Part shown: positions 23,671 through 30,421 of the stretch, one piece after another
Layout: the number at the start of each line of letters is the position of its first letter
Position numbering within the stretch: position 1 is the stretch's first letter
Assembly (NCBI RefSeq): GCF_002407065.1
Contig: NZ_CP023564.1
Location: 806,001-870,000 of the forward strand
Reading direction: 5' to 3'
DNA from: Brachybacterium ginsengisoli
GTDB lineage: Bacteria > Actinomycetota > Actinomycetes > Actinomycetales > Dermabacteraceae
DNA: 64,000 nucleotides
Translations under genes and position numbers: made by a program
The notes under the pieces: model-generated
Database searches by the model: none
Told to the model about the DNA's origin: nothing
The model's input: the letters and a program-made list of their open reading frames with translations, nothing else

Positions 23671-23718
23671 CGAGCTGTCACCGCACCGAGCTGTCACCGC
23701 ACCGAGCTGTCACCGCAC
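23671..23718. repeat. 16-bp tandem repeat, three perfect copies
   Basis: CGAGCTGTCACCGCAC is repeated at 23671-23686, 23687-23702 and 23703-23718, followed by a diverged partial copy. It lies between the convergent stops of pyrE and the metallopeptidase gene. Confidence 0.9.
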
Positions 23719-23734
23719 CGACCGGGGGAGCCGC

Positions 23735-26440: not shown

Positions 26441-27466
<1,026 letters not shown>

Positions 27467-27509
27467 GCGGTCGCTGACCGGTCCGCCGCTGCGCGGACCC
27501 TGCACGATC

Positions 27510-27543
27510 ACGGAACCCCGGAGCTTCGGCTCCGGGGTTCCGT
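27510..27543 (+). terminator. Terminator of fbaA
   Basis: Perfect 15-bp arms (27510-27524 and 27529-27543) close on a TTCG tetraloop, 43 bases after the stop. It is an intrinsic-terminator-like hairpin with no long U-run. Confidence 0.85.
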
Positions 27544-27639
27544 CATGTCCGGGGCGCGGGCGGGCGGTGTCGCGGGTGGGTCGATGGCGTGGACGGGCCG
27601 GGCCGGGACGGGCCGGGCCGGGCCGGGGTGTCATGGAGC

Positions 27640-27691
27640 GGTCTATGGCGACGAGAGCTGGCTATATAGCCACCTCACGTCGCTATAGACC
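27640..27691. repeat. 52-bp imperfect palindrome with TATA-rich centre
   Basis: Outer arms GGTCTATGGCGACG (27640-27653) and CGTCGCTATAGACC (27678-27691) match except at one base. The centre is the perfect 12-bp palindrome GGCTATATAGCC (27660-27671). The A/T core stands out against very GC-rich surroundings. It directly abuts the 17-bp repeat array. Confidence 0.85.
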
Positions 27692-27695
27692 CGCG

Positions 27696-27831
27696 CGCGA
27701 CATAGGCCGATTCGCGACATAGGCCGATTCGCGACATAGACCCCCGCGCGACACAGGCCGACTCGCGACATCGACCCCCGCGCGACACGGGCCGACTCGC
27801 GACACAGGCCGACTCGCGATTTCAGCCGACC
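27696..27831. repeat. 17-bp tandem repeat array, eight units of two types
   Basis: Units begin at 27696, 27713, 27730, 27747, 27764, 27781, 27798 and 27815. All start CGCGA. One type reads CGCGACATAGGCCGATT with small changes (units 1, 2, 4, 6, 7 and a diverged 8). The other reads CGCGACATAGACCCCCG (units 3 and 5). The unit length is not a multiple of three and no real gene covers the array. It lies between the convergent stops of fbaA and the DUF2516 gene. Confidence 0.9.
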
Positions 27832-27947
27832 CGCGACGCGGCAGGGCGGACGGGGCGTCTCCACGACGGGCGCGAGGACACGCGACGGCCGCGGGCGCGG
27901 CCGGGCCCGGCGCGGTGGCGCCGCCGCTCCTCAGGCGCGGCGGGGCG

Positions 27948-28268
27948 TCACCAGCGGTTGCCCTGTGCGCGACCCATGACCCGCTTCAGCGCGGGCAGGA
28001 CGTCGGCCAGGAAGACTCCCGCGATCACCACACCGGCGAGCATGAACAGCATCGAGCTGCCGCCCCGGCCGATGGGGTAGGGGAGCGAGAGGAAGCCGAG
28101 CAGCACGGCGACCCCCGTCAGCACGCCCCAGAAGGTCTTGCTGCGCTTGCCGGCGGCGGTGTAGGCATCCGGACGGAAACGCAGGGCGTTGACCAGGGCC
28201 CAGACCTCCACGGCCAGCAGGGCCACGGCGAGGACGAGGAAGATCCACATCTGGATGAGGGCGATCAT
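27948..28268 (-). CDS. DUF2516 family membrane protein
   Basis: 106 residues with three hydrophobic helices. The pattern (ALVNALRFRPDAYTAAGKRSKTFWG near the first loop, then GFLSLPYPIG) matches the actinobacterial DUF2516 family of unknown function. Minus-strand TATCCT (28280-28275) lies 6 bases before the ATG, suggesting leaderless transcription. Confidence 0.85.
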   Translation of the reverse strand: MIALIQMWIFLVLAVALLAVEVWALVNALRFRPDAYTAAGKRSKTFWGVLTGVAVLLGFLSLPYPIGRGGSSMLFMLAGVVIAGVFLADVLPALKRVMGRAQGNRW

Positions 28269-28363: not shown

Positions 28364-28477
28364 GACGACCCGCTCAGCGCCGCCGGACCGGCTCAGCGCT
28401 ACCGGACCCGCTCAGCGCCACCGGACCGGCTCAGCGCCACCGGACCCGCTCAGCGCCACCGGACCGGCTCAGCGCCG
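28364..28477. repeat. 19-bp tandem repeat, six units, overlapping a gene end
   Basis: Units start at 28364 (diverged), 28383, 28402, 28421, 28440 and 28459, with consensus CCGGACCSGCTCAGCGCCA. The variable S alternates G, C, G, C, G, so the true period is 38 bp. Each unit holds a minus-strand TGA; the last copy contains the stop of the FUSC gene. Confidence 0.88.
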
Positions 28478-29764
28478 CCGGTCCGGATCGGAGCGGTCGG
28501 TGATCAGCAGCTCGAGGGCCTCGGTGGTGGCCTGCGGCTCTAGCGCCCGCATCTCCATCGTCATCGGGCGGGGCCCGATCGCGTCGCCGTCCGCGGCGAC
28601 GACCAGGCTGGGCAGGAACTGCTTCGCCTCGGCGGCGCTGAGCCCGGTGGCCTGCAGCAGGTCGATCGCGAGGGAGCGCAGCTGGATCGTCAGGGTGACG
28701 CCCTCGAAGTGGCCCGCGCGGCCCGGCCGCTTCCCCTCGTCGTTGCGCAGCAGCATCTCGGGGGTGAGGTAGGAGCCGTACAGGCGCAGCTTCCGCCGCG
28801 CCTCGGTGAAGTCGACGTCCTCGTGGGAGACGGCGGTGCTGAGCTCCTGGACCGCATCCCGGGCGGCCAGCAGCGCGTCGGCGAGGGTGGAGTGGGCGTC
28901 GCCGCGCACCGCGTCGAGGAACTCCGTCTGACGCCGGGCGATCACGCGCATGTTCCGCATGGCGCGGTCGGAGCCCACCAGCAGGTGCTGGAGTCGGTTC
29001 ACATCGTCGGCGTGGCGCAGACCGGAGGGGGAGAAGGTGGCGATCTCGTCGGCGACGTCGTTGGCGAGCTTCCACTCGTCGGTGTACTTCTGGGAGACCT
29101 CGCGGATCTTCTTCAGGGCGGCCTGGGCGATCCCGCGGTCCCCGCTGCGGGCTGCGAGCGCGAGGTTGACCAGGGTGCCCTCGAGCTCCCGGTAGAACGA
29201 GGCGGCGGCTCGGCGCTGGAGGCGTCGCGGATCGCCGGAGAGCAGCAGGTGGACCACGATCGCGACGCTCACGCCGGTGAGCGCGTCGAGCACACGGGCC
29301 CCCGGGGTCATGGTGGGGGTGGTGGGCATGATCATCACCAGCAGCGACTGGATGGCCGTCTGGAACCCGAAGAGGTTGCTCGAGTCGATGAGCCGGGCGA
29401 GCATCCCGGCGGTGAACACCACCACCAGGATCTGCCATGTGCCGGAGCCGATGGTGGCGCGGGCGAGCTCGCCCAGGAGCACGCCGAGCATCACGCCGCA
29501 GGACAGCTCGACGATCTTGCGCATCTTCTTCTCGATGCCGAAGCCGATGATGATGAAGCCGACGATCGCCGAGAAGAAGGGGTACTGGTGACCCCAGATG
29601 ATTCCGCTGAGCAGGTAGGCGAGGCTCGCGGCGACCGCGGCGCGGCCGACGGTCAGCGCATCGCCGCGACCCCGCGAGATCCCGCTGGAGAACCAGTCGC
29701 GGACGGCGCCGCGCGCCCGCTCGATGACCGGGATGGAGGAGGTCGGGGTGGGCTGGGTGCTCAT
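28469..29764 (-). CDS. FUSC-type / aromatic-acid-exporter-like membrane protein
   Basis: 431 residues. About six N-terminal membrane helices (residues about 40-180) carry a pattern like fusaric-acid-resistance and aromatic-acid exporter families (YPFFSAIVGFIIIGFGIEKKMRKIVELSCGV shortened here as YPFFSAIVGFIII). A cytoplasmic helical domain of about 240 residues follows. It probably exports small organic acids or drugs, but the substrate is unknown. It begins with an ATGA overlap with the next gene upstream, and its 3' end lies in a 19-bp repeat array. Confidence 0.82.
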   Translation of the reverse strand: MSTQPTPTSSIPVIERARGAVRDWFSSGISRGRGDALTVGRAAVAASLAYLLSGIIWGHQYPFFSAIVGFIIIGFGIEKKMRKIVELSCGVMLGVLLGELARATIGSGTWQILVVVFTAGMLARLIDSSNLFGFQTAIQSLLVMIMPTTPTMTPGARVLDALTGVSVAIVVHLLLSGDPRRLQRRAAASFYRELEGTLVNLALAARSGDRGIAQAALKKIREVSQKYTDEWKLANDVADEIATFSPSGLRHADDVNRLQHLLVGSDRAMRNMRVIARRQTEFLDAVRGDAHSTLADALLAARDAVQELSTAVSHEDVDFTEARRKLRLYGSYLTPEMLLRNDEGKRPGRAGHFEGVTLTIQLRSLAIDLLQATGLSAAEAKQFLPSLVVAADGDAIGPRPMTMEMRALEPQATTEALELLITDRSDPDRRR

Positions 29765-30204: not shown

Positions 30205-30370
30205 TCTTCCAGGTCGAGAGCGTCTGCACAGCGGGGATGGCGGAGGAGGGCGGTGCAGGATCGGTGAGGGCGTCGTGGAGGCCGACGGATCGTCGGCCCC
30301 GCACGAGCGCGAGGAGCACGGCGGACCCCTGAAGATCAGAGCGGGGCGTGACGGGCGCGGCGCCCCTCGG

Positions 30371-30421
30371 TCAGGGCGTGGCTGCGGTCAGAGCGTGGCT
30401 GCGGTCAGAGCTTGGCGGTGG
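30371..30421. repeat. 17-bp tandem repeat copying a gene's 3' end
   Basis: TCAGGGCGTGGCTGCGG (30371-30387) and TCAGAGCGTGGCTGCGG (30388-30404) are followed by the related TCAGAGCTTGGCGGTGG (30405-30421), which is the stop end of the YgfZ gene read on the plus strand. Each unit carries a minus-strand TGA. Confidence 0.8.

Follow-up and report, generated by a model that had tools for sequence, protein, structure and literature searches.

For many extragenic palindromes of bacteria, RAYT transposases provide the explanation. The iteron-plus-hairpin origins of HUH replicons combine a stem-loop with adjacent direct repeats. REPs and REPINs are dispersed extragenic palindromes for which hairpins are predicted in single-stranded DNA, and REPINs are associated with RAYT transposases (Bertels and Rainey 2011, PMC3116915). 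Tandem REP arrays are reported in the same article and consist, in the passages used here, of whole REPs 72 or 112 bp apart or of evenly spaced GI REPs. By definition, a REP unit measures 20–40 bp and carries a GTAG or CGTC tag that stays unpaired (Di Nocera et al. 2013, PMC3733652). The CGTC-tagged REPs of that article, for which the sections cited here give no known dedicated transposase, have stems of 8–9 bp, loops of 4–5 nt and an unpaired tag, and prefer convergent and unidirectional gaps; TGTC is given there as one variant of the tag. The phyla named in that article do not include Actinobacteria, and the word occurs 0 times in its main text. Stem-keeping double changes in a palindrome can also be explained by quasipalindrome template-switch correction, which in the account of Monttinen and Löytynoja (2022, PMC8794818), as far as cited here, is a mutation process and not a repeat family and leaves dispersal unexplained.

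Here we describe a palindrome with an adjoining tandem array from Brachybacterium ginsengisoli. In the parts of the Brachybacterium and REP/palindrome literature covered, no description of this repeat family was found; both passages of the B. equifaecis paper containing the word "palindromic" concern CRISPR.

Results

The window analyzed, a stretch of 64,000 nucleotides (positions 806001–870000), is part of a 3.95-Mb single-contig genome, here called G000. The palindrome and the array share a gap of 481 bp between two convergent genes, the setting that had been given in the first-pass annotation: fbaA, encoding a class II fructose-bisphosphate aldolase (26441..27466, plus strand, PF01116, E 1.4e-74), and a DUF2516 gene (27948..28268, minus strand, PF10724, E 4.3e-27). 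The DUF2516 protein led to 17 relatives, of which 16 are recorded as Brachybacterium and one as an Actinomycetales MAG, which places the host in Brachybacterium. The fbaA gene is followed by a terminator-like hairpin at 27507..27546 (plus strand, inverted repeat I3, 94%) which is separate from the element. A hairpin of this kind was recognized by eye in 12 of the 14 fbaA gaps inspected.

The 52-bp palindrome of the first-pass annotation (27640..27691, inverted repeat I1) is real, but represents only the inner part of a complete palindromic element of 74 bp with the ends TGTC...GACA at 27629..27702. Its arms, 27640–27667 and 27664–27691, are 89% complementary around the core GGCTATATAGCC. The full extent was obtained from family alignments A1 and A3 and from a covariance match (G000:C1:833627-833704, corresponding to window positions 27627–27704) of 80.8 bits. 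A left outer module of the TGTC-RCGGA type (27629..27639, plus strand) and a right outer module (27692..27702, minus strand) enclose the inner hairpin; in the family both are kept in sequence and poorly paired at positions 7–12. Folded as RNA, the 78-mer reached −46.7 kcal/mol (z −7.0).

An in-register comparison revealed that the terminal 17 bp of the element (TAGACCCGCGCGCGACA, 27686..27702) are the unit repeated by the array. Since the element's own last 17 bp constitute the array unit, the array has grown out of the element. It occupies 27703..27838 and consists of eight outward 17-bp copies starting at 27703, 27720 (A), 27737 (B), 27754 (A), 27771 (B), 27788, 27805 (A) and 27822 (decayed). 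Two unit types, TAGGCC-GATT-CGCGACA and TAGACC-CCCG-CGCGACA, were distinguished, and beyond TAGACCCGCGCGCGACA the array goes on outward as TAGGCCGATTCGCGACA and TAGACCCCCGCGCGACA types. The direct-repeat family D1 is spaced exactly 17 bp, and TRF reported a period of 17 with 8.4 copies at 27696–27837. Thus, 17-bp units of two types do lie beside the palindrome as originally proposed, and the number of eight holds; the first unit then counted belongs to the right end of the palindrome. In the left flank, 27566..27589 (plus strand) is probably a degenerate copy of the outer arm (GGTGTCGCGGGTGGGTCGATGGCG), as suggested by inverted repeat I2, in which 27561–27589 pairs with 27766–27794 (83%).

The periodicity of the gap is far beyond chance: the best periodic match covered 101 of 136 positions, compared with a maximum of 70 in 500 dinucleotide shuffles of the 481 bp. 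The palindrome exceeds chance moderately, its best 37-pair form having 28 pairs against a maximum of 25 in 500 such shuffles, a modest margin. The evidence that the palindrome is real rests more on its repetition than on this test. Palindrome and array are one object, a single copy of a dispersed hairpin repeat family of about 74 bp.

In a BLAST search of the 221-bp region against 58 genomes the palindrome was found in several relatives and at many further places of its own genome. For the array part, no match elsewhere in these genomes lay below E 1e-4; its best match elsewhere was a look-alike GC-rich array in genome G033 (E 1.9e-4). A first alignment, of 18 copies selected among the initial 24 places for their palindrome score, gave the 74-bp element. 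Covariance model R1 detected 17 places in this genome and, at E ≤ 0.01, had a match in 24 of 38 Brachybacterium genomes. The broader model R2 was built from 80 copies, with no genome contributing more than 8. With the best 125 first-look candidates per genome scored, it gave matches in 27 of the 38 genomes at E ≤ 0.001, none in the other 11, and up to 62 two-strand matches corresponding to about 31 places; place counts of both models are rough, their E-values being short-calibrated and the best candidates per genome being those scored. Among 149 sampled genomes of the order 6 matched, namely 5 of the 10 listed members of the genus and genome G043, in which the match was weak, partial and 50 bp long. 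Apart from this partial match, the family has so far been seen only in Brachybacterium. Copy number differs sharply between relatives: G007 has about 10 places and its neighbor G029 one single-strand match, as placed on an fbaA tree of 30 genomes which, based on one gene, is rough.

According to the first-pass annotation, restriction to this single locus would count against its proposal. Such restriction applies to the exact array, whose pattern gave 6 unit-to-unit matches in this genome and 0 in the other 37 of the 38 genomes, whereas the palindrome is dispersed. According to R2, a family copy is present in 4 of 30 fbaA gaps (contig ends truncate 2 of them, 28 are complete) and at 5 of 17 named DUF2516 loci, two of the latter in species outside the four fbaA-gap carriers. 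An array of the same module was seen in 2 of the 14 fbaA gaps inspected (G000 and G018). The suggestion of a single iteron-type replication or partition site is not supported, given the 17 palindrome places in the genome and the searched neighbors, which comprise VTT, SpoU methylase, fbaA, DUF2516, FUSC and one protein without family and include no rep or par gene; it is also disfavored by the fact that the array is not kept at orthologous gaps. Carriage by phages or plasmids was set aside: the 481-bp region had no match in PLSDB or INPHARED, and 25 IMG/VR stretches matched two arm patterns, none of them with the palindrome (best 21 of 37 pairs).

Related structures were encountered in the genus. 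Besides the first subfamily there is a second one, which has the core TCTGCCATATATGGCAGA and shares the TGTC ends; its members are G030 C24, C13, C18, C1 and C21 and G026 1685226 and 4129059. The fbaA gaps of G012 (L156) and G001 (L161) are without a family copy and contain other long hairpins of different sequence, and a further hairpin in the fbaA gap of G029 had a single match across the 38 genomes. Two very similar genes, which from their sequences we take to encode superoxide dismutase-like proteins, occur in G000 (L124 2896–3531 and L131 4055–4681) and in G004 (L226 and L227), with an element downstream of each.

The genomic surroundings were determined for a catalogue of 117 copies from 16 genomes, among the matches listed, with genes from a codon-score caller. 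Gaps between genes harbored 113 of the 117 copies: 61 were tandem, 44 convergent and 8 divergent; 3 further copies overlapped a gene call and 1 remained undetermined. Convergent gaps made up 44 of 110 element-bearing gaps and 14 of 89 control gaps (p 1.7e-4), and divergent ones 8 of 110 and 21 of 89 (p 0.002), the controls being gaps no shorter than 120 bp, taken from the window and from other stretches; a few of these gaps carry an element. An earlier orientation control was discarded as biased, since no neighbor of a convergent gap can itself be convergent. The element thus sits between genes, preferably at their 3' ends. The interpretation of the first-pass annotation is thus partly supported: the element is real, non-coding, repeated over the genome and enriched in convergent gaps, so that "BIME-like" is the nearest of the explanations offered there. 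As to location relative to the origin, the distance of 46 positions from position 1 was not different from uniform (p 0.35); at the start of five assemblies (position 1), no dnaA was recognized by eye in the initial gene calls.

Arm pairing was counted in 115 copies, two of the 117 having been dropped for an off-centre palindrome (7 and 8 pairs). As the copies were collected mainly by a model that rewards pairing, the absolute values are over-estimated to some degree: folded-arm positions 14–39 were mostly 73–100% paired, with 55–60% at 28, 32 and 37; positions 4–6, near the TGTC ends, were 80–95% paired; and positions 7–12 were 38–67% paired, with 17–47% of departures matched on the other arm. 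The contrast between inner and outer parts is less affected by this bias, from which the places first seen by BLAST are free. Position 26 carries 0.09 bits of sequence information, yet it is 83% paired and 84% of its departures are matched. In 80 copies 441 double-changed cells were counted versus 175 ± 10 in shuffles, with changes on both sides at 31 of 35 pairs. In the 32 usable of 33 strict orthologous pairs, inner double changes numbered 139 against 57 expected under independence of the arms, 97 of them being fully compensatory; outer ones numbered 52 against 43 expected. The element is therefore bipartite, with an inner hairpin of about 52 bp whose arms co-vary and outer TGTC modules which are kept as sequence and whose arms change nearly independently. 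The ungapped 80-copy alignment displayed the conserved blocks TGTC..GGGCC..TGGC; helical phasing of these blocks was not significant (p 0.14).

A mismatch that is G·T on one strand is A·C on the other. On the coding strand of 59 tandem-gene copies G·T (108) was not preferred over A·C (98; p 0.53). Rfam gave no match at gathering score in the window, and two sub-threshold microRNA matches appeared in another search. An RNA hairpin was rejected on these grounds. We infer that the family acts and evolves as DNA, in the form of a transient hairpin or cruciform, and not as RNA.

The inheritance of the copies was followed with 33 strict one-to-one orthologous pairs, which replace a looser list of 59 and represent 39 of the 117 copies at 13 positions in 21 genome pairs. 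Orthologues were closer to each other than non-orthologues in 17 of the 21 genome pairs, but not in 4; positions are thus inherited. The occurrence of the 13 positions in several species argues against recent activity there. At the same time, copies within a genome were closer to each other than to their orthologues in 14 of the 21 genome pairs, but not in 7, which indicates that the sequences were homogenized or re-spread; many of the exceptional genome pairs of both kinds rest on one orthologue, and homogenization fails most clearly in the closest species pairs, G017-G026 and G026-G030. Between the close species G026 and G030 a compensatory pair, A-T to C-G, was found. Several copies in G028 have common flanks on both sides, with 76–91% identity over the joint stretch, a likeness that points to copying of a longer unit. 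Embedded in this longer repeat, which reaches beyond the palindrome by about 80–90 bp on its left and by as much as about 100 bp on its right, are the G028 copies L049, L050, L051, L052, L053, L055 and L102. In one orthologous gap the element is absent from G017 and present in G026 and G030. The G017 gap also lacks more than 100 bp of flanking sequence; since its flanks differ as well, neither a clean insertion junction nor a target duplication could be read in this single aligned element-free gap.

Tandem growth of the terminal module is not restricted to the window. Of 230 element ends, 22 bore outward matches to the terminal 17 bp, 29 matches in total, and 5 matches were inverted; swapping of flanks gave a mean of 11.1 and a maximum of 20 in 300 swaps. 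A smaller test on 53 elements yielded 20 end copies and 3 inverted ones; swapped flanks gave 10.8, with a maximum of 21 in 200. The excess of end modules over swapped flanks is clear and directional. Further arrays of the end module were found at G028 C17 (17 bp), G028 C7 (18/36 bp), the fbaA gap of G018 (C14, 19 bp) and G030 C1 (19 bp); those at G007 C51 (19 bp) and G007 C14 (20 bp) consist of two alternating types. Arrays of any kind were present in 49 of 109 element gaps versus 24 of 162 element-free gaps, an approximately 3-fold enrichment (p 0.008, 0.003 and 0.012 in three gap-length classes) which may partly come from weaker constraint in convergent gaps. The array of G033 (L014, about 1440–1570) is GC-rich, has a unit of about 21 bp with a GACCCCCGCGCGAC motif and resembles the B-type unit of the window. 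As neither BLAST nor R2 found a family match in G033, look-alike arrays evidently arise without the element. Minisatellites of 13–36 bp are common in gaps of the genus. The window itself contains other GC-rich tandem arrays at 28367–28486 (19-bp unit, 6.3 copies), 23671–23721 (16-bp unit, 3.2 copies, perfect) and 30368–30416 (17-bp unit, 2.9 copies).

The search for a mobilizing enzyme gave no hit for Y1_Tnp (PF01797) in the 38 genomes; the same search was positive in 5 of 14 control genomes. An MTES_1575-type endonuclease-like gene (PF18741) lies between two elements in G000 (L123 4212–5129, about 1141.2–1142.1 kb), G018, G019 and G031 (L117, L191 and L215), at a locus whose flanking genes we assume, from their sequences, to encode PhoH and fumarase. 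A homologue in G030 (L202) has one element and stands beside different genes. The position of this nuclease, for which no relevant NCBIfam or PADLOC family was obtained, is suggestive, but it was rejected as the mobilizer for now: its family is present in all 38 genomes, including the 11 without an element match, and gene number does not follow element copy number.

Discussion

Like REPs and REPINs (PMC3116915, in the passages cited), the Brachybacterium elements are dispersed extragenic palindromes, and tandem arrays accompany both. Their arrays repeat the outer module at 17–20 bp, unlike arrays of whole REPs. The element also falls outside the definition of a REP unit, as it is 74 bp long and carries a paired TGTC at both ends, with an arm of 37 bp in place of the short stems of the CGTC-tagged REPs. 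It has in common with the latter (PMC3733652, as cited above) the gap preference, the TGTC variant and the lack of a known dedicated transposase. HUH-replicon origins differ in that no linked Rep gene or replicon was seen here and that many chromosomal copies exist. We class the family among the extragenic palindromic repeats, as a variant whose end-module array is unusual.

The explanation that we favor, as a whole probable though far from assured, is a REP-like family of extragenic palindromes at the DNA level, with tandem expansion of its own ends and a putative trans-acting spreader. Complementarity of the arms would be maintained through hairpin-templated (quasipalindrome, template-switch) correction, through selection for the hairpin or through both. 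Spread would occur by occasional copying via the putative trans-acting factor. The simplest cause of the arrays may be replication slippage at the base of the hairpin, which could be seeded by a TGnCG-type match, seen by eye, 17 bp apart between outer module and inner stem of some copies. The outer module may be a protein-binding site. A more far-reaching formulation, which we regard as possible and put forward tentatively, is a two-part element not described before: a freely varying, largely self-complementary hairpin would stand between "address" modules that are kept as sequence and able to multiply outward, and its copies, partly inherited in place, would be rewritten together in each species by a putative trans-acting system other than a Y1 transposase.

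A different emphasis would have the outer 17-bp module bound by a nucleoid, transposition or replication protein, with palindrome and array as a cluster of higher affinity, in line with the iteron-like sites proposed in the first-pass annotation. Conservation of the module as sequence and not as pairs, its tandem expansion at several loci, in some of which two unit types alternate, and the conserved blocks of the 80-copy alignment speak for such a site, and a direct-repeat array is a trait of iteron and partition sites. However, these are linked to a rep or par gene and confined to one or few loci, and here no such gene was among the searched neighbors and 17 places carry the palindrome; moreover, the array is not kept at the orthologous gap, an outward copy occurs at only 22 of 230 ends, and a protein reading the duplex fails to explain the matched changes at freely varying inner positions. 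We therefore rate the binding-site system as rather unlikely. A further reading is a purely mutational relic, in which a chance quasipalindrome was perfected by template switching and arrays arose by slippage, with neither factor nor function. Such a relic is compatible with the compensatory pair between the close species G026 and G030, with the ability of template switching to maintain stems (PMC8794818, in the part cited) and with the many kinds of tandem arrays in gaps of the genus. It leaves unexplained why copies of one family are dispersed, why blocks are conserved and length is near-constant across the genus, and why longer flanks are common to copies in G028, and appears improbable.

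A classical REP or REPIN mobilized by a RAYT (Y1 transposase) is another candidate, as is a MITE belonging to a DDE transposon; extragenic position, palindromic structure, 3'-end preference and the patchy copy number of related species such as G007 and G029 agree with this. The RAYT form is weakened because Y1_Tnp is absent from all 38 genomes. In addition, the element exceeds the length of REPs (PMC3733652, as cited) and has tens of copies where REPs usually number more than 100 per genome (PMC2817692, in the part cited), and the target duplication of a MITE was not seen in the one aligned element-free gap, whose flanks differ too. We give this origin as little credit as the mutational relic. 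The least probable reading, and a very improbable one, is a bidirectional transcription terminator or RNA 3'-end hairpin. Enrichment in convergent gaps and the stable fold would suit it, but fbaA already has its own hairpin upstream of the element, a T-run terminator scan passed no site, neither that hairpin nor that of the element, the coding strand has no preference for G·U, and 8 copies lie between divergent genes.

The REP-like family favored here is an actinobacterial palindrome family in which no RAYT was found, and position sharing, homogenization and compensatory change can be measured in it within one genus. Whether such palindromes are maintained by selection or by template switching, and whether adjoining minisatellites are seeded by hairpins, are thus questions that are testable in this family.
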